DNA from: Meiothermus sp.
GTDB lineage: Bacteria; Deinococcota; Deinococci; Deinococcales; Thermaceae
Length of the DNA stretch: 51,440 nt
Reading direction: 5' to 3'
NCBI RefSeq assembly: GCF_025060375.1
Contig: NZ_JANXCG010000001.1
Location: 1-51,440, forward strand
How positions within the stretch are numbered: the stretch's first letter is position 1; each line of letters begins with the position of its first letter. Position numbers and translations under genes: made by a program. The notes beneath the pieces are model-generated. The model was not told the origin of the DNA. It did no database searches and saw only the letters and a list, made by a program, of their open reading frames with translations. This document shows positions 1,067 through 11,611 of this stretch, one piece after another.

Positions 1067-2077
1067 ATGCCGCTCAAGCGTCAGCTGGCCTGGGTCATCG
1101 GCCTGTTGGCCTTTGTCCCCAACCTGGTGGTGGTCCTGCCCTTTTTGTTCTCCCCAGAGGAGCCGTTTGGGTCGCGGCGGGTTTTCCTGGTGTTCTGGCT
1201 ATTGGTGTTGGCGGGGCTTGCCGCCTTGGCCGGTTATGGGCTGGCCAGCGCCCTGTTGCGTTCGGTGGACGAGCTCACCCGCAGCCTGCGCTACCTAAGG
1301 GGCAGCGGCCGGACCCTCCCTGAGCTGAGCCTGCCTACCCCGAAAGAGCCCCTGCCCGCTGAGATCGCCCAGCTCAGGGAGGGTTTTGAGGAGCTGTTGG
1401 CGTACCTGCGGGAGCTTCTGGAGGCCCGTGAGGCCACCTACGCAGCCCTAACCCACGACCTTAAGACCCCTCTGCTGGCTGCTTTGCGGAGCCTGGAGTA
1501 CCTGGAGGAGGCTGACCGGATAGGCCCCGTCAAGCGTAAGGAGCTGCTGAGGACCTTGCGGGATGAGCTTTACCGAAGCTATTTGTTGGTGGAGAACCTG
1601 CTGGTAGCCAGCCGCTTGGAGACCCGCCGGATCCAGCCAGAAGCCCTTGGTCTGCGCGCCCTTTTGGAGGATTTTCGGCTGCGCTACGCACAGCAGGCCG
1701 TCCAGCGCGGGCTACGGCTCGAGATAGAAGGGGCGGGCCAGGCTCGAGGGGAGCGGCTTCTGCTCGAGCGAGCCCTGGCCAACCTCGTGGAAAACGCGCT
1801 GCGCCATGCCAGGAGCCGGGTAGTGCTCAGGGCTGGAGAGGGATGGCTCGAGGTGGAGGACGATGGGCCGGGGCTTCCCGACAGCCTTGAGGTACTCTCT
1901 CAGCCCTTCCGGAGCCAGCGCTTGCGGGGGGTGCGGGCTGGAAGTGCCGGGCTTGGCCTCTATGTGGCCCGAAGGGTAGCCGAAGCGCACGGTGGGCGGC
2001 TGGAAAACCTGGCAGCCCCCGGCCAGGGTAGCCGGTTGCGCATCTGGATAGAGCCGGAAAGTGCGGCTAAACCCTAG
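1067..2077 (+). CDS. Membrane sensor histidine kinase with a very short extracytoplasmic loop
   Basis: A 336-residue kinase. Two membrane segments (about 8-28 and 39-65) are separated by only about 10 residues, so there is no periplasmic sensor domain. A HAMP-like linker follows, then the HisKA H-box THDLKTPL with phospho-acceptor His130, an N-box (NLVENALRHA, about residue 240), a G1 box (DDGPGLP) and a G2 box (AGLGLYVARRVAEAHGG). It should autophosphorylate and signal from or within the membrane. No response regulator is adjacent; the nearest (5962-6540) is of NarL type, which usually pairs with HisKA_3 kinases, so that pairing is uncertain. The ATG is 6 nt after TAGACT, giving a probable leaderless mRNA. 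The neighbouring pilin genes suggest a link to pilus control, which is inference. Confidence 0.88.
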   Translation: MPLKRQLAWVIGLLAFVPNLVVVLPFLFSPEEPFGSRRVFLVFWLLVLAGLAALAGYGLASALLRSVDELTRSLRYLRGSGRTLPELSLPTPKEPLPAEIAQLREGFEELLAYLRELLEAREATYAALTHDLKTPLLAALRSLEYLEEADRIGPVKRKELLRTLRDELYRSYLLVENLLVASRLETRRIQPEALGLRALLEDFRLRYAQQAVQRGLRLEIEGAGQARGERLLLERALANLVENALRHARSRVVLRAGEGWLEVEDDGPGLPDSLEVLSQPFRSQRLRGVRAGSAGLGLYVARRVAEAHGGRLENLAAPGQGSRLRIWIEPESAAKP

Positions 2078-2140
2078 GCGCTTAGGGGGAGTGATGCTGG
2101 TGCGGGTCTGTTCTCCCTTTCTCCTCCATGTAACGGGATA

Positions 2141-2192
2141 CCCCCCATTCGGGGGTTCCGCTTCCCCCAGCAGACCCCCCAAACTTAGGGGG
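2141..2192 (+). promoter_or_regulatory. Alternating C-run/G-run leader covering the first prepilin's ribosome site
   Basis: Five homopolymer blocks alternate before the prepilin start at 2195: C6 (2141-2146), G5 (2151-2155), C5 (2164-2168), C6 (2175-2180) and G5 (2188-2192). The last G-run is the likely Shine-Dalgarno sequence and can pair with the C-run at 2175. The G-run at 2151 can pair with any C-run, so mutually exclusive hairpins are possible. It may alternatively serve as the kinase gene's terminator. Function is inferred only. Confidence 0.4.
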
Positions 2193-2194
2193 CT

Positions 2195-2659
2195 ATGTGG
2201 GGACCTATTCACCGACCGTTGCGCTCTGCGGGGGGGTTTACCCTGCTCGAGCTGATCGTGGTCATGGCCATCCTCGGGGTGGCCATAGGCGTTGGATTTG
2301 CCCAGGTGCGCAACCTTTCCCAACGCCAGCAGGCCCTGGCTACGGTAGAACAGATTCGCCAGCTTTTCTGGCATGGGGCCACAGCGGCGGCCAGTCGTGG
2401 GGGGACCAACTTTTTGCTGGTTCGTAGTGGCAACGTGCTTAGGGTGCAGTCCCAAGCCGATGGCAGTGTGCTGCGCAGCGTAACTCTTCCCTCAGGGGTG
2501 AGCTGCAGCTTGAGCGAGGGTACCCTGGCCACCTTCACCTCTCCGGGCAAGGTGGTCTTCTCCAGCAATTTCCCTGCCAACCGCCAGTTTACCGTTTCGG
2601 CCAATGGACAGACTTTTACCCTTACCGCCACCCTGATCGGAGAGGTGCGCCGTCAATGA
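2195..2659 (+). CDS. GspH/FimT-type minor prepilin (PilA1-like)
   Basis: A 154-residue type IV pilin-like protein. The leader of about 14 residues ends in Gly-Gly and is followed by FTLLELIVVMAILGV: Phe+1, Glu+5 and a hydrophobic helix, the classic PilD cleavage signature. The remaining part is a small globular domain expected outside the membrane. Position, size and the following genes match Thermus pilA1-pilA2-pilA3-comZ, a set required for natural transformation and piliation. In GspH-I-J-K terms it fills the GspH place at the pilus tip (inference). The next gene overlaps it by 4 bp (ATGA). The start is the ATG preceded by the G-run at 2188-2192. Confidence 0.85.
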   Translation: MWGPIHRPLRSAGGFTLLELIVVMAILGVAIGVGFAQVRNLSQRQQALATVEQIRQLFWHGATAAASRGGTNFLLVRSGNVLRVQSQADGSVLRSVTLPSGVSCSLSEGTLATFTSPGKVVFSSNFPANRQFTVSANGQTFTLTATLIGEVRRQ

Positions 2660-3132
2660 GAAACCAAGGGCTTACCTTCATAGAGGTGATTGTGGCTGCG
2701 GGAGCGCTGGCAGTGGTGCTGGGGTTTTTCACCACTTTGCTGGTGGGCAACATGCGCCAGACCACCATTGTGGGTGGGCGGGCCCAGGCCAACCAAATTG
2801 GCATCTTTCTCGGGCGACAGATACTCGAGGCCGACGATCGGGCCCTGCCTGCGGCGGGTCAGAGCCTCAGGTGGAACTACGGCCAGCTCAACGATGCCAG
2901 CATCGGCTTCGCTACCCTGACCCAGGAGCAGCAGTTTGGCAACATTGCCCTTTACCGGGCCAGCATAACCAACCAAGGAACCCCCTCTTGGGCGGGAAGC
3001 GGCTGGCAGGTTAGCCAGTACAGCATTGAGGTTTGCTGGCAGAGCCCTGAGGGAGAGCGGTGTGTGCAGCAGAGCATTATCGGGCCCGCCCCGGCCCTAG
3101 CAGGCAATGAAGTGGTGACCAACGTCAACTGA
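2656..3132 (+). CDS. GspI/PilV-type minor prepilin (PilA2-like)
   Basis: A 158-residue prepilin with the minimal leader MRNQG followed by LTFIEVIVAAGALAVVLGFF: Glu+5 then a hydrophobic helix of about 20 residues. The C-terminal domain has a Cys pair (CWQSPEGERC) that could form a disulfide loop. It overlaps the upstream prepilin by 4 bp, so translation is coupled. By order and size it matches Thermus PilA2 and the GspI/PilV position of a tip complex. The exact binding partner cannot be read from the sequence. Confidence 0.83.
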   Translation: MRNQGLTFIEVIVAAGALAVVLGFFTTLLVGNMRQTTIVGGRAQANQIGIFLGRQILEADDRALPAAGQSLRWNYGQLNDASIGFATLTQEQQFGNIALYRASITNQGTPSWAGSGWQVSQYSIEVCWQSPEGERCVQQSIIGPAPALAGNEVVTNVN

Positions 3133-3143
3133 AGGAGGAAACC

Positions 3144-4010
3144 TTGCGAACCCATGCATTTACCGTGCTTGAGCTTCTGCTGGCCCTGTTGGTGCTGGTG
3201 GTGGTCATGGCCATGGCTTTCAGCACCAGCGTCCAGGGCCTCCAGCTCAACCAGTCCAACGAGGCCATTAGCGCTGCTCAGAACAAAGCCCGCCGGGTGT
3301 TGGAGGTGCTGAGCCAGGATTTGCGCACCTCCGCTTTTGCGGTGATTACCAACGCCCCTTTCAACAGCAACACCACCGGCATCTCCTTTGCTCAGGTGGC
3401 GGGGGGGGCTGGCTACACTGTCAGCGCGGTTTCCGGGGCCAGCTTTACCTTGGTGAGCGGCTCTCCCACGCTAACCGCGGAAATTCCAGTGGGCAGCCGT
3501 TTGCTGCTCATAGATGGTGATGGAAACGCGGTGGTGACCCGTGTGGGCAGCGCTCCGGTGGCTAGCGGCCTTAACCTGTACACCGTCACCACCACCTGCA
3601 ACAACCTGCCCATCAGCTTGACCACCCAGACCCTGGCTTCGGTGGTCAGCCTTCTGGGCTACAGCTACGATGCCGCAAACCGCAAGCTGGTGTACCAGGC
3701 CCAGGGGGATGCCGCTCCTACCGATGTCGCCTACGATATAAGCGACTTTCGCATTGACTACGTTTACCGAAAGCGCACCGGTTCTACCCTAAGCGAGGAA
3801 CGCAACCCAAGTGGGTACTTGGTCAATAACCAAGTGCGGACCTACTTCACCAGCGGAGGCTCGCAGTACTCCTTGCGGCGGGTTCAGTTCACCCTAGGGG
3901 TTCAGGTGCCCCTGCGGAACCGTACCATTGAGCGCACCTACACCGGTCAGGTGGACATGATCAATGCCCTTTACTACGAGGCTAAGGTGGTGAGCCTATG
4001 CAACCCATGA
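3144..4010 (+). CDS. GspJ/PilW-type minor prepilin (PilA3-like)
   Basis: A 288-residue prepilin starting at a TTG preceded by a strong GGAGG 5 nt upstream. The leader is MRTHA and the mature part starts FTVLELLLALLVLVVVM, with Glu+5 present. The residue before the cleavage point is Ala rather than the usual Gly; some prepilin peptidases accept this, but it is worth noting. Length and position match PilA3 and the GspJ/PilW role. Its last codons overlap the following comZ-like gene by 13 bp. Confidence 0.82.
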   Translation: MRTHAFTVLELLLALLVLVVVMAMAFSTSVQGLQLNQSNEAISAAQNKARRVLEVLSQDLRTSAFAVITNAPFNSNTTGISFAQVAGGAGYTVSAVSGASFTLVSGSPTLTAEIPVGSRLLLIDGDGNAVVTRVGSAPVASGLNLYTVTTTCNNLPISLTTQTLASVVSLLGYSYDAANRKLVYQAQGDAAPTDVAYDISDFRIDYVYRKRTGSTLSEERNPSGYLVNNQVRTYFTSGGSQYSLRRVQFTLGVQVPLRNRTIERTYTGQVDMINALYYEAKVVSLCNP

Positions 4011-5908
4011 GACGACCCCAGGGTATTGCAATGGTGGTGGCCCTGACCATCATCCTGATACTGAGCGTGGTGAGCGGCCTGATCTTTACGCGTACTATCA
4101 ATGATCTGCGTGCTAGCCGGGACAACACCGCTCTAGCCCAAGCGGTCAACCTGGCTCGAGGGGGCGCGGTGGCTGCGTCGGCCCTGCTTTCCAACGAGGT
4201 CCGGGCCAGCTTGGAGACCCTGGTGCGCTCGGCCAACCCAAGCCTGGGGGGGATCAGCACCAGCGACATCTGGTACTATGGGGGCAACGATGTGTTGCCC
4301 AACCCAGCTACGGTGGCCTCCCGCCTCTCCCTGCTGGCTGCTAGCCTCCAGACTGAAGTCAACAGCCTGATTTGCAACCGGAACTTCGCGCCGGACGGTT
4401 CGGGGGCTACCGTGCAGGTGCGCATCTACTTTGTGAGGTCCTCGGTGTGCGGCCAGCCCTTCCCTGCAGGGGCTGAGCTGCCCTCGGGTTACGTGGTGGA
4501 CAACGACAACAACCCCGCTACCCCTCTGACCCGCCAGACCCAAGGGTATGCCCTGCCCTACGTGATGGTGGTGACCGCCTCTCCCGGTACCCCCTACCAG
4601 CGCAATGTGGTGGTGCAGGGGGAGTACCGCTTTTTGCTTACCAACGGTAGTTTCGCCCGTTACGCGCTCTTCACCAACCGCCACCGCACCAAGTCCAACA
4701 CCGCAGTGTGGTTTACTAGTGGAACCCTCTTCGACGGGCCCGTGCACACCAACGAGCGCCTGCGCTTTTCCTTCAACCCGTGGTTTGGGGGTTATGTGAC
4801 CAGCGCGGGGTGTACCGATGCGGGGGTGAGCAACTGCAACGGGAGTACCAACCCGGGGGCATTTTTTGGTTCAGGCAGCACCACCACCTTCCTCTCGCCC
4901 TCCCAGATGACCAACCCCAACGCTCCCTCCTGGACCAGTGGGGGTGTGACCCACGCGCCGACCTTTGAGGGCAACCCCAGGGTGAACTGGCAGGAACCCT
5001 TCATTCCCATGCCGGCCAACGCCCAGAATCAGCGCAACGCTGCTATAGCGGGGGGGCTGTACCTCAACTTCGATGTGGCCCGCCTCACCCTGTACGCGGG
5101 GGATGCCAACGGCACCACCCCCACCTGCGACAGCTCGGGGGTCTGTACCCCGGCTACCTCCCCTTACCAGTACATTGAGGTCTGCCGCACCTCGAGCTGC
5201 ACCGGTACCAACCGCGAACTCTACCGCTATGGCTCGGATGGAGCGCTGTACCGCCAGGTGGGTAGCTCGTGGGTTTTGGTCCGGGCCAGTTTCAACGGGG
5301 TGATTTTTGCCGACGGGAGCATCAACAACCTCACCGGCCCAGCCCGTGCCAGCAGCAGCAACCCCAACACCGCTCCCCCAGCGCTGGCCTCCTTTGCCCA
5401 GATCACCGTGGCCAACGCCGGGGACGGGAAGAACATCCAGATACGGGGCGACCTCAAGTACCAGAGCCCGGCTTGCAGCGGCACCCCTACGCGCAGCGGG
5501 AACACGGTCGTCCGGCCCACCTGCAACAACCTCTCTGCCGACAACATTCTGGGGGTCTACAGCCAGGATGGCGACATCCTGCTTGGGGACGGTACCAATA
5601 ACTCTTTGCAAGACCTCACCATCCATGGGGTTTTGATGGCCTCCAGGGGCGAGGTGACCGTTCAGAACTATGACAGCATTAGCCCCAGGGGTGCGATTCG
5701 CCTGCAGGGCGGCATCATCCAGTACACCTACGGGGCCTTTGGGCAGTTCAACAGCTCGACCGGCCAGATGACGAGCGGTTACGCCCGCCAGTTTGCCTAC
5801 GACCCCCGGATGCAGGACCGCGCGCCCCCCTTCTTCCCCACCACTGGGGTGGTGCAGGTGAGCGTGGCTACCCCCTTGAGCTTTGGGCAACGGGAACAGG
5901 TGTACTAG
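3998..5908 (+). CDS. comZ: ComZ/PilX-like large minor pilin (DUF4900 type)
   Basis: A 636-residue protein. It has a short basic leader, a hydrophobic helix after Gly9 (IAMVVALTIILILSVVSGLI) and a large extracellular part rich in Asn, Thr, Ser and Gly, as expected for a beta-rich fold. It lacks Glu at +5, as GspK/PilX proteins do. Context after pilA1-A2-A3 points to ComZ, the Thermus competence protein associated with pili and DNA uptake. A YALFTNRH segment followed by FDGPVHTNE around residues 220-250 is shared in outline with the 6603-8663 protein. The ATG at 3998 has GGTGAG 3 nt upstream; an ATG at 4007 overlapping the previous stop is an alternative. A terminator hairpin follows at 5922-5953. 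Confidence 0.82.
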   Translation: MQPMRRPQGIAMVVALTIILILSVVSGLIFTRTINDLRASRDNTALAQAVNLARGGAVAASALLSNEVRASLETLVRSANPSLGGISTSDIWYYGGNDVLPNPATVASRLSLLAASLQTEVNSLICNRNFAPDGSGATVQVRIYFVRSSVCGQPFPAGAELPSGYVVDNDNNPATPLTRQTQGYALPYVMVVTASPGTPYQRNVVVQGEYRFLLTNGSFARYALFTNRHRTKSNTAVWFTSGTLFDGPVHTNERLRFSFNPWFGGYVTSAGCTDAGVSNCNGSTNPGAFFGSGSTTTFLSPSQMTNPNAPSWTSGGVTHAPTFEGNPRVNWQEPFIPMPANAQNQRNAAIAGGLYLNFDVARLTLYAGDANGTTPTCDSSGVCTPATSPYQYIEVCRTSSCTGTNRELYRYGSDGALYRQVGSSWVLVRASFNGVIFADGSINNLTGPARASSSNPNTAPPALASFAQITVANAGDGKNIQIRGDLKYQSPACSGTPTRSGNTVVRPTCNNLSADNILGVYSQDGDILLGDGTNNSLQDLTIHGVLMASRGEVTVQNYDSISPRGAIRLQGGIIQYTYGAFGQFNSSTGQMTSGYARQFAYDPRMQDRAPPFFPTTGVVQVSVATPLSFGQREQVY

Positions 5909-5921
5909 GGCCCTTCTCCGC

Positions 5922-5953
5922 GGCTACCCCAGGCCTTCTGGTTTGGGGTAGCC
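5922..5953 (+). terminator. Terminator of the first pilin operon, doubling as -10 region of the next gene
   Basis: A perfect 10-bp inverted repeat, GGCTACCCCA (5922-5931) and TGGGGTAGCC (5944-5953), has a 12-nt loop and is followed by a short T-rich tail. The TAGCC of its 3' arm plus the next T forms TAGCCT (5949-5954), exactly 7 nt before the response regulator ATG. Confidence 0.75.
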
Positions 5954-5961
5954 TGTCTTTG

Positions 5962-6540
5962 ATGCGCCTTTTGGTTGCCGACGACCACCCCCTTTTCCGC
6001 ATGGGCCTGCGGGTTGCCTTGGAGCGGGAGGGGTTTAGCGTGGTAGGAGAGGCTGCCGATGGGCAAGAGGCAGTGGAGCAGGGCTTGGCGCTGTTGCCCG
6101 ATGGGGTGCTACTGGATGTGCGGATGCCCAGGATGGACGGGATAGCCGCTACCAAGGCTCTACGGGAGGGGCGCTACCGGGGCCTCATTGCCCTTCTCAC
6201 TACCTTTAGCGAGCCGGTGCTGGTTCAGCAGGCCGCCTACGCTGGGGCAGATGCGTACTGGTCCAAGGAGCTACCGCCGGAGGTGCTGGCCGAGCGGTTG
6301 CGCCGGCTCGAGCGGGGCCTAGAACCCCGCCTTAGGGCCCCTGAGCTGCCCCGGCTCTCCCCCCGGGAGCAGCAGGTGCTGGCCTGGGTGGCCCAGGGGC
6401 TTTCCACCAAGGAGATGGCCCGCCTCATGGGGATTTCCCCAGAGACGGTCAAGGACCACCTAGTAGGCCTTTACGACAAGCTGGGGGCACGCAACCGGGT
6501 GGAGGCCTTGGAGCGGGCCCGGGCGCTGGGCCTGCTCTAA
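5962..6540 (+). CDS. NarL/FixJ-family response regulator
   Basis: A 192-residue two-domain regulator. The receiver domain (about 1-115) has the acidic pair in VADDHPLF, the phospho-acceptor Asp in LLDVRMPRMDG (near residue 52), Thr in LLTTFSE and Lys in SKELPPEV. A LuxR-type helix-turn-helix follows (LSPREQQVLAWVAQGLSTKE..., about 130-190). It should bind DNA when phosphorylated. The ATG at 5962 is preferred over a TTG at 5959 because it lies 7 nt after TAGCCT. It sits between the two minor-pilin operons, so control of one or both is a natural guess. The partner kinase is not obvious. Confidence 0.9.
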   Translation: MRLLVADDHPLFRMGLRVALEREGFSVVGEAADGQEAVEQGLALLPDGVLLDVRMPRMDGIAATKALREGRYRGLIALLTTFSEPVLVQQAAYAGADAYWSKELPPEVLAERLRRLERGLEPRLRAPELPRLSPREQQVLAWVAQGLSTKEMARLMGISPETVKDHLVGLYDKLGARNRVEALERARALGLL

Positions 6541-6602
6541 ACTGGGATGGGCAGGACTGCTATATTAGGGATGGCGTTACGTGTTTATTCTGGAGGCTTC
6601 CC

Positions 6603-8663
6603 ATGCGCATCCCCCGAGGAATCACCTTGGTTTCCACATTGGTTTTTCTTTTCATTGTGGTGATTGTGGTGAGCGTAGCCGCCCTCACCTCCCTTAGCAA
6701 CCGCCGCAACGCCCAGTACGCCCTGCGCACCTCCCAGGCCCAGTTTGCTGCCGAGGCCGGTCTCGAGCGGGCGGTGGTCTGGCTTTGGTACCAGGCCCTG
6801 GAGAGGGCTGCCGCGCCAAGTGTGGTTGCCTACCGCCAGGCCCTGGACGGGATGGGCTTGACCGATGGGGCTACGCTCAGGATGGAGGGAACCCTAGGGG
6901 ACGGTGGCCGCTTTGAGGTGCGGGCCTCCCGGCGGGACACCACCCGTTTGGGTGAGCCCCAGGTTGAGCTTGTGGTGGTCTCTACCGGCACCCTTTCCGA
7001 CGGCACGACCCGGCGGCTGCGCCAGGTCCTTCGCGTAGCTCGCGCGCCTTTTCCCTTTGAGTACGCCCTTCTGACCAACAAGGCCGACTGCGTTTTCTGC
7101 CACCTGGAAGTGCGCAGCATGGATGCCTTCCGGGGCGAGCCTAACCCAAACGACCCGAGCACCTGGTGGCGCCGGGTGAAGGTGGGGGTGCTGGAGGACC
7201 TGGTCACGCGGGATGATCAGGAGGTGGGGGGGGTGCATGGGGCCCTCCTTGTTCGGGGGGAGGTGCGCCAGCAGTACGGCGGCCAGCCCGGGCTCTCCAG
7301 CCGGTACTACACCACCCTTCAGCCTGGGCAGACCCAAATCCGCTCCACTGCCCGCCGGTCGCCCACTCCTGCCGACTGTGCGGTTCCCAGCAACTGCGCT
7401 ACGCCCCAGAACCTCTACCTCAACTACCCCACCAGCCGCGACCTGGCCCGCTTTGGAGGGCGCTTTCCCGACGGCGAGCTGCCCGACTCGTTCCCCCTGC
7501 CCGTGCCCGATGCCAACGGCAACCGCCTCATCGACGATCAGGAGTGGCTCGAGGAGGTGCAGTCGAGCCTGCAAAACCGAAACGAAACCTACGCTGCTGG
7601 CTGGATTGAGGCGGCGGTGGTGGTTAACCCCAGCTCCATCGCCTGGCCGAGAGGGGCCGGGGTGCAGACCCTTAGCTCTGAAGACCTGGGCCTCTCTCCC
7701 AGCAACGTGATCCTGGATGGCACGGTTACGCCGATTACCCTGAGCGGCACGGTTTTCATCAATGGGGATGTGGTCATCCGGGGCCGGGTGCGGGGCAACG
7801 GTACCATCCTGGCTCGGGGCAATGTCTACGTGCTGGGCGACCTAGTTTACGACTGCGGTCAGGGCGAGGCTCTGCGGGACTGCGACTACCGTGACCCCAG
7901 CCGCCTCCCTCAGCTCAGCCTGATTGCTGGGGGAAATATCCTGATGGGGGACTTCCTGAGCGTGGACACCTTCCGGGCCCCTAACCTCAATCTGCTGGGG
8001 GCCAACCGCTTGCAGAGGCCCATGAGCGAGTGCCGGGCCAACCCCAGCCAGGAGGGGTGCGGGAGCGGCGCTGAGGGCGTGGGGTACCGCCCCAACCTGA
8101 CCCTTACCGAGGTGGCCAACTTTAACCGCAGCGAGCTACAGCGCTGGCTGCGGGACAACAGCTACCGCCCGCGCTTCTATACCTACAGGGAGGACACCGT
8201 GTACTTCGCTACCGGTTGCGAGCACGATCCCCAGGCCTACGGGGGTTACAGGGCCTTGCGGGTTGCGGAGGAAGAGGTGTCCCTCTGCGGTCAGAGGCTG
8301 AACCTGGCCATCGCGGAGGCCATCCTAAGTCGGGCGGCCCGCTACGAGATCATCTCGCCGGCATTCGGTGAGGCCGGCTTGAAGGGGCTTTGGGATGAGA
8401 GCGCGAGGGGTCGGCCGGCTGGGGCCTTCCGTACGGACGGCCTTCTGTATTCGGCCAACGCCGTCTTCAGCGTTATCCAGAATGGGCGGGGCTACAACCT
8501 AGGGGGCCGATGGGACCTGCGGGGGGCGTTGGTGGCCGCGGATGTGGGGGTGCTGGCCCCGGTGGGGTTGGACATCTACCACGACAACCGTTTGCGCCCC
8601 CGCGTCCTTGGAGGCCAGCGGCCCCAGCTTGTCCGGGGGGTCTGGGAGGTGGTGGGGCAGTGA
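6603..8663 (+). CDS. Second ComZ/PilX-like minor pilin with a CxxCH motif
   Basis: A 686-residue protein. Leader MRIPRG is followed by a hydrophobic helix (ITLVSTLVFLFIVVIVVSVA) with Ser rather than Glu at +5, as in GspK/PilX. The large exported part carries a heme-c-type motif, Cys163-Val-Phe-Cys166-His167, right after YALLTNKAD, the site equivalent to YALFTNRH in the first ComZ-like protein. Several other cysteines occur in close pairs (near 259/265, 418/425, 478/486), suggesting disulfides outside the membrane. A good GGAGG lies 6 nt before the ATG, and a TATATT box at 6561-6566 is a possible -10. Its stop overlaps the GTG of the next gene. Heme binding is a hypothesis; disulfide or metal binding are alternatives. 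Confidence 0.8.
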   Translation: MRIPRGITLVSTLVFLFIVVIVVSVAALTSLSNRRNAQYALRTSQAQFAAEAGLERAVVWLWYQALERAAAPSVVAYRQALDGMGLTDGATLRMEGTLGDGGRFEVRASRRDTTRLGEPQVELVVVSTGTLSDGTTRRLRQVLRVARAPFPFEYALLTNKADCVFCHLEVRSMDAFRGEPNPNDPSTWWRRVKVGVLEDLVTRDDQEVGGVHGALLVRGEVRQQYGGQPGLSSRYYTTLQPGQTQIRSTARRSPTPADCAVPSNCATPQNLYLNYPTSRDLARFGGRFPDGELPDSFPLPVPDANGNRLIDDQEWLEEVQSSLQNRNETYAAGWIEAAVVVNPSSIAWPRGAGVQTLSSEDLGLSPSNVILDGTVTPITLSGTVFINGDVVIRGRVRGNGTILARGNVYVLGDLVYDCGQGEALRDCDYRDPSRLPQLSLIAGGNILMGDFLSVDTFRAPNLNLLGANRLQRPMSECRANPSQEGCGSGAEGVGYRPNLTLTEVANFNRSELQRWLRDNSYRPRFYTYREDTVYFATGCEHDPQAYGGYRALRVAEEEVSLCGQRLNLAIAEAILSRAARYEIISPAFGEAGLKGLWDESARGRPAGAFRTDGLLYSANAVFSVIQNGRGYNLGGRWDLRGALVAADVGVLAPVGLDIYHDNRLRPRVLGGQRPQLVRGVWEVVGQ

Positions 8664-9094
8664 GGGGTAGAGGCCTCAGCCTCCTGGAGCTGGTGGTGGT
8701 GGTGGCGGTGCTGGGGGTTCTCCTGGGGGTGGGGTTTGTTGCCCTCCAGGCCTACCGCCAGAACCTGGTTGTCCGCGAGGCTGCGCTTCAGGTGGCTACC
8801 GAGCTGGTGGGCATCCGCCAGCAGGCCCGCCGCTTCTCCCGCGACCATGCTTTTGTGGCGGCCCCTGGTGGGCCCACCTACCGGGTGGGTCCTGTCGGTG
8901 CGCTGGTGGAGCGGTCCCTCCCCGCGGGGGTGGTCTTCCAAAGGGTGCCTGGAAACGGGAGCGTGACCTTCTATGCACCCTACGGCCGGGTTAGCGCTGT
9001 CAACAGCACCTATGAGCTGCGGGGGCCAGGAGGGCGGGTGTTGCAGGTCAACATCGTGGGGAGCACGGGGAAGGTGGTGGTTCGTGCGCCGTAG
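8660..9094 (+). CDS. GspH/FimT-type minor prepilin, second cassette
   Basis: A 144-residue prepilin starting at a GTG that overlaps the TGA of the preceding gene. Leader MRGRG is followed by LSLLELVVVVAVLGVLLGVGF: Glu+5 and a hydrophobic helix. The body (RQQARRFSRDHAF, then a Gly/Val-rich beta region) resembles the FimT/GspH type, as does the 2195-2659 protein. It is the second gene of the permuted cassette K-H-I-J. Longer upstream readings in this frame are shadows of the ComZ-like gene. Confidence 0.83.
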   Translation: MRGRGLSLLELVVVVAVLGVLLGVGFVALQAYRQNLVVREAALQVATELVGIRQQARRFSRDHAFVAAPGGPTYRVGPVGALVERSLPAGVVFQRVPGNGSVTFYAPYGRVSAVNSTYELRGPGGRVLQVNIVGSTGKVVVRAP

Positions 9095-9458
9095 GGGTTT
9101 TTCCTTTGTGGAGGTGATGGTGGCCCTGGCCATCCTCTCCATCGCCATCCTGATGCTGACCTACCTTGGCTCGAGCTTCACCCTCACCCGCAACGCCCAG
9201 ATAGACACCCAGGCCCAGGCCTATGCCCGGAGCTACTTTGACAGCCTGCGGGCGGCTTGGGGGAACGAAGCCGCCTTTGAGCGGGGAGAGCTGCCCAGCC
9301 TGCCCCTGCCCAGCGGCTTTGCCAGCCTCGAGGTGGACGTGGAAGACGTGGAGACCCTGGGCCAGCGGGTGGTGCTGCGCCGGGTAACCCTAGGCTTCCT
9401 CGGCCCTCAGGGCCACGCCTACCGCTTCACCACCGAGGTGGTGCGGCCGCCGCTGTAG
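9084..9458 (+). CDS. GspI/PilV-type minor prepilin, second cassette
   Basis: A 124-residue prepilin starting at a GTG 11 nt inside the preceding gene. Leader MRRRG and mature start FSFVEVMVALAILSIAILML give Glu+5 and a good helix. The small C-terminal domain ends with a beta-rich segment (VVLRRVTLGFLGPQGHAYRF). Size and order match the PilV/GspI type. Tight overlaps on both sides imply coupled translation with the rest of the cassette. Confidence 0.83.
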   Translation: MRRRGFSFVEVMVALAILSIAILMLTYLGSSFTLTRNAQIDTQAQAYARSYFDSLRAAWGNEAAFERGELPSLPLPSGFASLEVDVEDVETLGQRVVLRRVTLGFLGPQGHAYRFTTEVVRPPL

Positions 9459-9466
9459 GGGGGTTT

Positions 9467-10288
9467 ATGCGCGCCAAGGGCCTTACCCTCATTGAGATGA
9501 TCATCGCCGCTGTGGTTGGGGTGGCCATCCTCGCCCTGGTCGCGGCTGGGCTCCGCAGCGGGAGCGAGAGCCTGCGCTTCGTGCAGAACGCCCAGCTCCT
9601 GACGGAGGACCTTCGCAACGCCGGAAACCTGGTGAGCGACCTGGTGGCCACCGCAGCCTTCGTCTATCCGCCTGGGGTTACCCTGTCCATCGGCACCCCG
9701 GGCGGTTACACGGTGCGCAACCCGAGCCGCAGCGACAACCTGTGGCGGATTGGCCGGGACCCGGCCATCGCCCTGCTCCAGCCGCCTACCGTGGTGGACG
9801 GGCAGGAGGTGGTGAGGTTTGTGATGGTCTACCCCCTAAACCGCGGCTGGGTGGTGCGGAGGGCCTCAGGGGCCGAGAACCCCGGCCCCGACCCGGCCAA
9901 CGACGGCAAGTGGCTCCTCTACATCTACGAGCGGAACCTCCCGGTAGGAGCCAGTCGCCTCCCCAACGGCTTGCCCACGACCATTCCCACCGAGATTCCG
10001 GGCAGCAGCGGTAACCTCTTGGCCGACTACCTCCAGCCCGGCGGTTTTGTGGTGGCCTACTCGGACTGCCTAGCCTTTGACGAGGCGGGCTGGGCGGTTC
10101 AAGCTCCCTGTCCCCAGTCCCCACCCACCCCCCTTCGGGCCGAGCACAGCGCGGTGCGGGTGAGCTTTTCCCTGCAGGGCGAGGTTCACCAGGGGGGGCG
10201 CGACACCCGTATTCCCGGCCAGCCCCTGCGCTTTGAGGCTGCGCCGCGGAACCTGCCCAAGCGGCAGGCTGAGGTGAGCCCCAACTAG
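9467..10288 (+). CDS. GspJ/PilW-type minor prepilin, second cassette
   Basis: A 273-residue prepilin: leader MRAKG, then LTLIEMIIAAVVGVAILALVAA with Glu+5. The exported domain is larger than in the two preceding prepilins, as for GspJ/PilW. One Cys pair (DCLAF and APCPQ) lies near residues 201 and 217. The ATG is 8 nt after the previous stop and follows GGGGG. The P450 gene begins 15 nt downstream but seems to have its own leaderless promoter. Confidence 0.83.
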   Translation: MRAKGLTLIEMIIAAVVGVAILALVAAGLRSGSESLRFVQNAQLLTEDLRNAGNLVSDLVATAAFVYPPGVTLSIGTPGGYTVRNPSRSDNLWRIGRDPAIALLQPPTVVDGQEVVRFVMVYPLNRGWVVRRASGAENPGPDPANDGKWLLYIYERNLPVGASRLPNGLPTTIPTEIPGSSGNLLADYLQPGGFVVAYSDCLAFDEAGWAVQAPCPQSPPTPLRAEHSAVRVSFSLQGEVHQGGRDTRIPGQPLRFEAAPRNLPKRQAEVSPN

Positions 10289-10303: not shown

Positions 10304-11611
10304 ATGATCCTTGACCCCGCTGAGCTCGAGCTGCGCCAGGACCCGCTGGCCTTCTTCCTTCACCTCTCCCGTACCAGTCCCGACATCACCACCTTTCGCT
10401 TTGCCTCGGGAAGGGAGATCGTCCTACTCAACCACCCCGACCTGATCCGCGAGGTGCTGGTTGAGCGGGCGGATGAGTTCCACAAGTCCGACCTGACCCG
10501 GGCCTTCGCCGGGGGAATGGGCAACGGGATTCTGGTGTCTGAGGGCGAGTTCTGGAAGCAGCAGGTGCGCATCATGCGGCCGGCCTTCCACTACAAGCGC
10601 CTGCAGGGCTATGCCGAGGTGATGCGGCGGTTCACCCTGGAGATGCTCGCCCACTGGCAAAACGGCGAGATTCGGCACCTCGAGGAGGACATGAACGCCC
10701 TTACCCTGCGGGTGGTGGCCAAGTGCATGTTCGATGTGGAAGCGGGGGAGGATCGGGAGATCATGCACCGGGCCATCATGCTGGGGCAGAAGGTGGTGGG
10801 TCAGATGGTCTACGGCTGGCTCAACCTTCCCGACTGGCACCCGGGCCTAAACCGCGACGGCATCCGGGTGGTGCGGGCCCTGAACGAGATGGTGAGCCGC
10901 CACATCGCTTACCGACGGGCCCGGGGCGACCTGGGGGACGACCTCCTCTCCATGCTGCTGGAGGCGCAGCAGCAGCCCGGTATACAGCTTTCCGACCGGC
11001 AGGTGCGCGACGAGGTGCTCACGGTCATTACGGCCGGCCTCGAGACCACCGCCAACGCCCTGGTCTGGACCTGGTACCTGCTCGATCGGCATCCCGAGGT
11101 GCGCGACCGGCTCGAGGCCGAGGTGGACGCCCTGGAAGGTCCCCCAGGCTTTGAGGAGGTGCAGCGCCTGCCCTACCTGGACCAGGTTTTCAAGGAGAGC
11201 CTGCGGCTGTACCCGCCGGTCTGGATTATTGGCCGGGAGAACATCCGCGAGCTGGAGCTGGGCGGGATGCGCCTGCCCCCCAAGACCCAGATTGTGATGT
11301 GCCAGTGGGCCACCCACCGCGATCCCCGCTTCTTTGAGCATCCCGATGCCTTCATCCCTGAGCGCTGGACACCGGAGTTTGAGAAAAGCCTGCCCAGAGG
11401 AGCTTACTTTCCCTTCAGCCTGGGGCCCCGGGTCTGCACCGGTCAGGGGTTCGCCACCATCGAGTACAAGATCATCGTGGCCACGGTGCTCCAGCGTTTC
11501 CGGCTCGAGCTGGCCCGGCCGGCCCCGGTACGCCCTGAGCCCAACTTTACCCTCTGCGCCCACGGCGGGATGCCCATGCGGGTCAAGGCGCGCCGGCCCT
11601 GCTCCCAATGA
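10304..11611 (+). CDS. Cytochrome P450
   Basis: A 435-residue P450 with all hallmark motifs: I-helix AGLETT (near 247-252), K-helix ESLR, the RLYPP segment, and the heme loop FSLGPRVCTGQG with heme-ligand Cys378. There is no membrane anchor, so it is likely soluble and needs a ferredoxin/reductase pair. The RLYPPVWII region resembles CYP175A1 of Thermus, a beta-carotene hydroxylase, but the substrate cannot be fixed from the sequence, and no carotenoid genes are adjacent. The ATG is 6 nt after TATCCT (leaderless). Its 3' end overlaps the convergent folC by 29 bp. Confidence 0.92.
   Translation: MILDPAELELRQDPLAFFLHLSRTSPDITTFRFASGREIVLLNHPDLIREVLVERADEFHKSDLTRAFAGGMGNGILVSEGEFWKQQVRIMRPAFHYKRLQGYAEVMRRFTLEMLAHWQNGEIRHLEEDMNALTLRVVAKCMFDVEAGEDREIMHRAIMLGQKVVGQMVYGWLNLPDWHPGLNRDGIRVVRALNEMVSRHIAYRRARGDLGDDLLSMLLEAQQQPGIQLSDRQVRDEVLTVITAGLETTANALVWTWYLLDRHPEVRDRLEAEVDALEGPPGFEEVQRLPYLDQVFKESLRLYPPVWIIGRENIRELELGGMRLPPKTQIVMCQWATHRDPRFFEHPDAFIPERWTPEFEKSLPRGAYFPFSLGPRVCTGQGFATIEYKIIVATVLQRFRLELARPAPVRPEPNFTLCAHGGMPMRVKARRPCSQ

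Follow-up and report, generated by a model that had tools for sequence, protein, structure and literature searches.

How a single type IV pilus machine manages to perform several jobs is a standing question, and sets of minor pilins located at the pilus tip are suspected to be the answer. It concerns a stretch of 51,440 nucleotides (nt) of Meiothermus sp. (NCBI RefSeq assembly GCF_025060375.1, contig NZ_JANXCG010000001.1), hereafter termed the window, which is contig C28 of a 2.39-Mb genome (G000) and carries two complete minor-pilin operons. Set 1, at 2195-5908, is ordered H-I-J-K, and set 2, at 6603-10288, is ordered K-H-I-J, with a NarL-type regulator gene between them. The analysis makes it likely that these two operons supply a single type IV pilus machine with alternative priming or tip complexes, each made of H, I, J and a large K as the cap, and comparison of gene maps and trees shows that whole cassettes were repeatedly replaced, during the evolution of Meiothermus, in the slot that precedes the regulator gene. 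The genes concerned are as follows.

1067..2077, forward strand: histidine kinase (HisKA and HATPase_c by Pfam), in the same position in congeners; left border of the exchange slot.
2195..2659, forward strand: H1, GspH/FimU-like minor prepilin with Glu5 (AGG-FTLLE), by motif and family match.
2656..3132, forward strand: I1, GspI/PilV-like minor prepilin with Glu5 (NQG-LTFIE), by position and motif with a weak family match.
3144..4010, forward strand: J1, GspJ/PilW-like minor prepilin with Glu5 (THA-FTVLE), TTG start with AAGGAGG upstream.
3998..5908, forward strand: K1, large protein in the GspK/ComZ position, DUF4900, G-IAMVV, with neither Glu5 nor CxxCH.
5959..6540, forward strand: NarL/LuxR-type response regulator; right border of the slot.
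6603..8663, forward strand: K2, large GspK/PilX-like tip protein, G-ITLVS, without Glu5.
8660..9094, forward strand: H2, GspH/FimU-like minor prepilin (G-LSLLE), GTG start in a 4-nt GTGA overlap with the K2 stop.
9084..9458, forward strand: I2, PilV/GspI-like minor prepilin (G-FSFVE), GTG start in an 11-nt overlap with H2.
9467..10288, forward strand: J2, GspJ/PilW-like minor prepilin (G-LTLIE), after an 8-nt gap behind I2.

The prepilin cleavage motif with Glu at +5 was found in all six small subunits (H1, I1, J1, H2, I2 and J2), and both large subunits start with a pilin-like N-terminus in which position 5 is occupied by Val (K1) or Ser (K2). These results bear out an earlier reading made from the letters alone (the sequence-only reading), which had described two complete sets in different gene order, each with three Glu+5 prepilins and one large protein devoid of Glu5, and a response regulator between them. 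The K-H and H-I overlaps and the 8-nt gap before J reported there for set 2 hold as well, with H2 starting at 8660 and I2 at 9084; some of the cassette start codons were set by eye. In set 1, H1 and I1 are joined by an ATGA overlap, and an equally possible start of K1, the ATG at 4007, would overlap the J1 stop as a further ATGA, so that set 1 appears to be as tightly coupled as set 2. Three elements had been overlooked in that reading, namely the kinase gene at 1067-2077, a third K-H-I-J set on contig C40, and a CxxCH motif in K2.

The most telling evidence comes from the surroundings of the cassettes. Approximately 20 oriented genome maps share one fixed frame, consisting of the kinase, the slot, the regulator and then K2-H2-I2-J2, and the slot is filled by the K1 set in 10 genomes, by a K3 set (order K-H-I-J) in G007, G018 and G020, and by a K4 set (order H-I-J-K) in G013, G015 and G019. 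These three slot sets are mutually unrelated, and where a K3 or K4 set occupies the slot, K1 was found nowhere in the genome. The slot is empty, with kinase and regulator as direct neighbours, in G012 (where three bases separate them), G006, Calidithermus and genus g2, so that the kinase-regulator pair is likely to be ancestral and to have been split later by insertion; the genomes in which the two genes were recorded side by side are G006, G012, G003, G004, G001 and G002. The names of genera g2, g4 and g5 are assignments of our own, g4 being presumably Thermus. For each of the three slot types, the hypothesis that its bearers form a clade was rejected by the approximately unbiased test (p from 7e-4 to 9e-10), both with a tree of kinase, regulator and K2 and with a uvrA tree, the two being not wholly independent because uvrA lies about 10 kb from the locus in some genomes.

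G013 (K4) and G020 (K3) are sisters in both trees, with support of at least 99. Their flanking regions are 86-95% identical, and the two sequences cease to align about 200 nt beyond the end of the kinase gene and align again from the start of the regulator gene; judged from this alignment, the cassette is replaced whole and the upstream control region is left in place. The exchangeability of tips proposed in the sequence-only reading is thus supported as evolutionary replacement at one slot, by the maps, the trees and this pair of sisters, whereas simultaneous or conditional use of both tips on one machine is something we only infer. Between trmI and the kinase, several Meiothermus genomes have an additional pilin set, made up of small prepilins and a K-like protein of about 557 amino acids (L077 767-3561; also L065, L066, L078, L082 and L084), which brings the number of tandem sets up to three. 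Neither G000 nor G018 has this set, and immediately before the kinase gene of G018 a palindrome discussed below is still found.

Of the 18 Meiothermus-genus genomes, 17 encode K2, as do both Calidithermus, while it was found in none of the 27 g4 genomes. Named matches are Meiothermus luteus (87%; the nearest named species to the window), M. rufus, M. taiwanensis and M. hypogaeus together with Calidithermus chliarophilus and C. roseus, and a scan of named genomes with K2 returned matches in Thermaceae only. K1 is full length in 10 of the 18 Meiothermus-genus genomes. Both sets are intact and syntenic in many congeners, which argues that the two-set arrangement is not due to chance. The view that set 2 lies outside the Thermus locus agrees with the absence of K2 from g4, taken as Thermus, and this absence excludes that set 2 is merely the usual ComZ set, the outcome which the proposed synteny check was to guard against. 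As for the claimed match of set 1 to the Thermus comZ locus, the gene order stood: the K protein of the comZ-type locus, present in eight of the 27 g4 genomes (split in two of the eight), is about 50% identical to K1, with the order H-I-J-K kept, and K1 would take the place of ComZ at the end of a pilA1-A2-A3-type order. The match did not extend to the sequence of the solved ComZ of HB27 (6QVI), which a K1 profile searched against Protein Data Bank sequences failed to retrieve.

The third complete K-H-I-J set of G000 lies on contig C40 (L079 2021-6150, minus strand), unlinked to the window on the present assembly, and encodes K3 (733 amino acids, with CMYCH), H3, I3 and J3. In G020, K3 is split over two contigs (L078/L083) with a TAG inside, and in G011 a relic of K3 persists as a 37-residue C-terminal piece (C8:106388-106498). 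Outside the family, a plasmid of Deinococcus sp. KNUC1210 (L146 5950-9923) harbors a K-H-I-J cassette containing CVMCH; with genes for transposase and recombinase in its vicinity, it may represent a mobile tip cassette. Elsewhere in G000, a pseudopilin-type group of about four genes is located on C81 (L081 297-1926) and two major-pilin-like genes of the GFTLIELLIVIAIIGILAA type on C90 (L080 1859-2643); in the window, a cytochrome P450-like gene, recognised by eye, directly follows set 2 (10304-11611).

At the level of protein families, Pfam N_methyl or NCBIfam GspH/PilV-type models clearly matched H1, I2 and H2 and weakly matched I1, J1 and J2. K1 contains DUF4900 (8e-29, Pfam), K2 scores 23.4 bits against PilX_N, just under the curated cut-off of 25.5, and the GspK model is touched only by the N-terminal part of K1 and K2, far under its cut-off. 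Sequence searches of K1, two comZ-locus K proteins of g4, I1 and the K2 family against solved structures gave no useful match, and the matches of K2 to PPR-design and MinC entries were taken as artefacts of composition or repeats. A structure model of K2 reached a predicted local distance difference test (pLDDT) of 82.9 with 33 diverse sequences, compared with 57 with 13 close ones, and in the better model a stretch of long strands follows the pilin sheet.

The large subunit of set 2 is distinguished by the following element.

7089..7103, forward strand: CVFCH (K2 residues 163-167), a CxxCH motif for haem-c attachment, directly behind the predicted pilin beta-sheet.

It is the sole CxxCH in open reading frames (ORFs) of at least 120 amino acids in the window. 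The motif is present in 19 of 19 K2 orthologs, down to about 41% identity, in 12 of 12 K3-type proteins examined, including the K3 of G000, and in 39 of 40 sequences of the wider K family across the phylum, to which the CVMCH of the Deinococcus plasmid cassette adds a further case; it is absent from K1, K4 and the comZ-locus K proteins. In the lone exception, L121 (G073), which reads GVFSN, both Cys and the His are replaced together. In the structure model based on 33 sequences, the motif follows immediately on the pilin beta-sheet, where the head begins. A CcmF gene was detected in G000 and in each of 20 relatives searched, and an exported CxxCH in a cell with the Ccm system is normally loaded with haem. 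K2 thus probably bears a single, non-canonical haem c. Three results weigh against a classical cytochrome: no cytochrome domain was recognised in K2 by Pfam or NCBIfam, no cytochrome fold was among the Foldseek matches listed for the K2 model, and no distal axial ligand common to K2 and K3 is conserved, since H212, H541 and H660 are conserved in K2 orthologs (0.95) and not in K3, and M156 in K3 only. A structural or sensory role of the haem is more likely than that of a conductor, and the conserved motif lends indirect support to the electron contact that the sequence-only reading had guessed.

The strongest competing account of the motif, which is possible though rather doubtful, sees in the CxxCH of K2 and K3 a dithiol, redox-active or structural, or else a metal site, holding the head onto the pilin domain. 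The missing cytochrome domain, fold match and common distal ligand would suit a dithiol, as would further conserved cysteine pairs in these proteins such as C418/C427. Nevertheless, the His is conserved as strictly as the two Cys, the exception having lost the three together, the comZ-type K proteins manage without CxxCH, and the usual haem loading of such exported motifs also counts against a dithiol.

The cassettes also share an element of presumed control. The palindrome CCCCCAnnnGGGGG, preceded by (T)TAACGTAACG, is invariant in the aligned gaps between kinase and slot, whichever cassette follows. In the window, two candidate elements were marked.

2130..2155, forward strand: putative operator of set 1, GTAACG and then the palindrome CCCCCATTCGGGGG (2142-2155), about 40 nt before H1.
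6558..6566, forward strand: candidate extended -10 of set 2 (TGCTATATT), kept in the window.

The strict palindrome stands at most 110 nt upstream of 31 of 45 cassettes, compared with 0.07 expected from its density in the rest of the same 580 kb, and a looser form precedes 39 of 45 (2.1 expected); the 45 cassettes, spanning four or five genera, are not independent. The slots carry it in 16 of 16 cases. It also lies about 40-80 nt upstream of the comZ-type locus in g4/g5, of the large cassettes of g2 and G006, of the K3 set of G000 on C40 (there about 40-50 nt), and of K2 in G013, G014, G015, G018, G019 and G020. In several congeners, the palindrome upstream of K2 directly abuts an extended -10 (TGTTACAAT), as is expected of a DNA operator. 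A search with GTAAC, the fixed 6-nt spacer and the palindrome gave an evident match at the slot only. Alongside this, the K2 promoters of Calidithermus (L068 9928-9991; L071) were seen to carry tandem GTTAC boxes (CGTTACnTTTGTTACAAC) beside a degenerate palindrome, and these boxes may be a second part of the operator.

An unlikely alternative is that the palindrome acts as an RNA hairpin, either a leader or the terminator of the upstream gene, instead of a DNA operator. It does form a G+C-rich stem and comes after the kinase gene at the slot, yet no T-run follows it and it also precedes cassettes with unrelated upstream genes, on which grounds a kinase terminator was rejected; moreover, where it abuts the extended -10 before K2, it would lie outside the transcript.

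If the palindrome is taken as an operator, the response regulator, of which 48 of 50 Thermaceae genomes have a single ortholog, is the obvious candidate for its binder, and the proposed mechanism can be outlined as follows. In the inner membrane, each H-I-J-K set would form a short filament, with its own K as the cap, from which pilus assembly starts, and the set would then stay at the pilus tip, by analogy with GspHIJK of the type II secretion system (T2SS), the priming complexes of Myxococcus (PMC7541494) and ComZ (PMC6561018). The regulator, or another factor, would bind the palindrome and decide which tip is made, and the set expressed would determine what the pilus touches. Set 1 would provide a comZ-like tip, perhaps for DNA, and set 2 a tip with a single haem c on its large subunit; this haem would be attached by the Ccm system and may stabilise the tip or sense or exchange electrons at a surface; adhesion is also conceivable as the job of set 2. 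On a wider scale, there is about an even chance that these proteins constitute a Deinococcota family of haem-c tip proteins, in which the capping pilin binds haem covalently where shaft and head join. One genome would then have at least two divergent cassettes of this kind (K2 and K3), and the tip contact would be redox-active, redox-sensing or haem-stabilised, with the interchangeable tips chosen through a shared operator.

Several observations weigh against parts of this picture. In three g4/g5 genomes examined, the ortholog of the regulator is not linked with the comZ-type locus and has no kinase gene beside it, so that the regulator may not be the binder of the palindrome. The strict palindrome was not found at the window's own set-2 promoter, so the two sets of the window may be regulated differently. 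K1 and K2 were rejected as sequence homologs, their alignment being restricted to the N-terminal helix (about 50 residues). By Foldseek, the K2 model matches a minor pilin domain only (Streptococcus PilA, 7o5y; E 0.45, template modelling score 0.57 on the target), and neither ComZ, cytochrome nor GspK structures are among the matches listed, from which a ComZ-type beta-solenoid head inserted in the pilin fold, as in 6QVI, was likewise not recognised in K2. With regard to the promoter, it was further noted that the strict palindrome is lost at the set-2 promoter (compared over window 6541-6602) in the M. luteus and M. taiwanensis groups, whose slot holds K1, and is kept in the readable genomes with a K3 or K4 slot, a pattern confounded by kinship.

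It is rather improbable that set 2, together with set 3, forms the pseudopilin tip of a T2SS-like secretion system, so that two machines instead of one would be served. In its favour, the models matched by the small subunits include GspH/XpsH/XpsI besides PilV, the minor pilins of Thermus are similar to T2SS pseudopilins (PMC6561018), and another pseudopilin-like gene group is present on contig C81. Against this, no secretion genes adjoin set 2 within the window, set 2 belongs to the same kinase-regulator locus as the comZ-like set, with which it also has the palindrome in common in several congeners, and both kinds of set replace each other in one slot. That one set is a redundant or decaying, lineage-specific duplicate without a job of its own is very improbable. 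In its favour, G006 lacks set 2, set types are gained and lost, and K3 is broken or fragmentary in G020 and reduced to a 37-residue piece in G011. Against it, set 2 is intact, free of stops and strongly conserved in all K2-bearing genomes examined, and in G000 the genes of the two sets all have open, coupled reading frames.

Under the preferred reading of alternative tips on one machine, the Meiothermus slot amounts to a natural swap experiment: sister species have different tip cassettes at one chromosomal site, preceded by a common upstream element. What a tip does could therefore be tested in culturable thermophiles by exchanging cassettes. Should haem be bound at the CxxCH, these proteins would be the first tip pilins with built-in haem, as far as the literature searched shows, and would connect pilus tips with redox sensing or with electron contact.

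The presence of more than one tip set in a genome and the horizontal acquisition of tips have precedents in Myxococcus, and Thermus is known to have a variable PilA-ComZ islet. Myxococcus has three sets of minor pilins and PilY1 (PMC7541494, PMC8833165), so two sets in differing gene order are not in themselves unusual, and some of its PilY1 types were acquired horizontally (PMC13190605). Clusters 1-3 of Myxococcus xanthus likewise provide several complete tip sets for one pilus machine, whereas the caps encountered here are proteins in the GspK/ComZ position, the CxxCH is inside the capping pilin, and the cassettes swap in one kinase-regulator slot; a PilY1 search found no match, and its control was equally silent. 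Cluster 1 depends on TfcP, a non-canonical cytochrome c which stabilises one tip set and is reported as unlikely to serve electron transport (PMC8833165); it is the nearest precedent for the haem proposed in K2. TfcP, too, has a CxxCH and goes with one tip set among several, but it is a separate, soluble periplasmic protein absent from pili, in contrast with the motif within a pilin-like subunit in K2 and K3, and no separate TfcP-like cytochrome gene with a signal peptide was found among the ORFs of at least 120 amino acids in the window. The GspH-I-J-K complex of the T2SS likewise combines three small Glu5 subunits with a large fibre cap devoid of Glu5, and it differs in that the GspK matches obtained here stay far below the cut-off, no GspK structure appears among the matches listed, and no secretion operon stands beside the sets. 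A report of cassette exchange in a kinase-regulator slot, of the common palindrome or of CxxCH in a capping pilin was not found in the literature searched.

Another close relative is the pilA1-pilA2-pilA3-comZ locus of Thermus thermophilus, in which ComZ serves as the DNA receptor at the tip (PMC6561018). Its gene order is that of set 1, the K protein of such loci in several Thermus-type genomes is about 50% identical to K1, and the palindrome is found upstream of them. Set 1 differs in being flanked by a kinase and a regulator and in the lack of a sequence match between K1 and the solved ComZ, and set 2 in its order K-H-I-J, its unrelated head, its CxxCH and its absence from g4. The PilA-ComZ islet varies between Thermus species and is thought to have been acquired horizontally (PMC5529391), whereas in Meiothermus unrelated cassettes are exchanged at one bordered site beside a constant second set.

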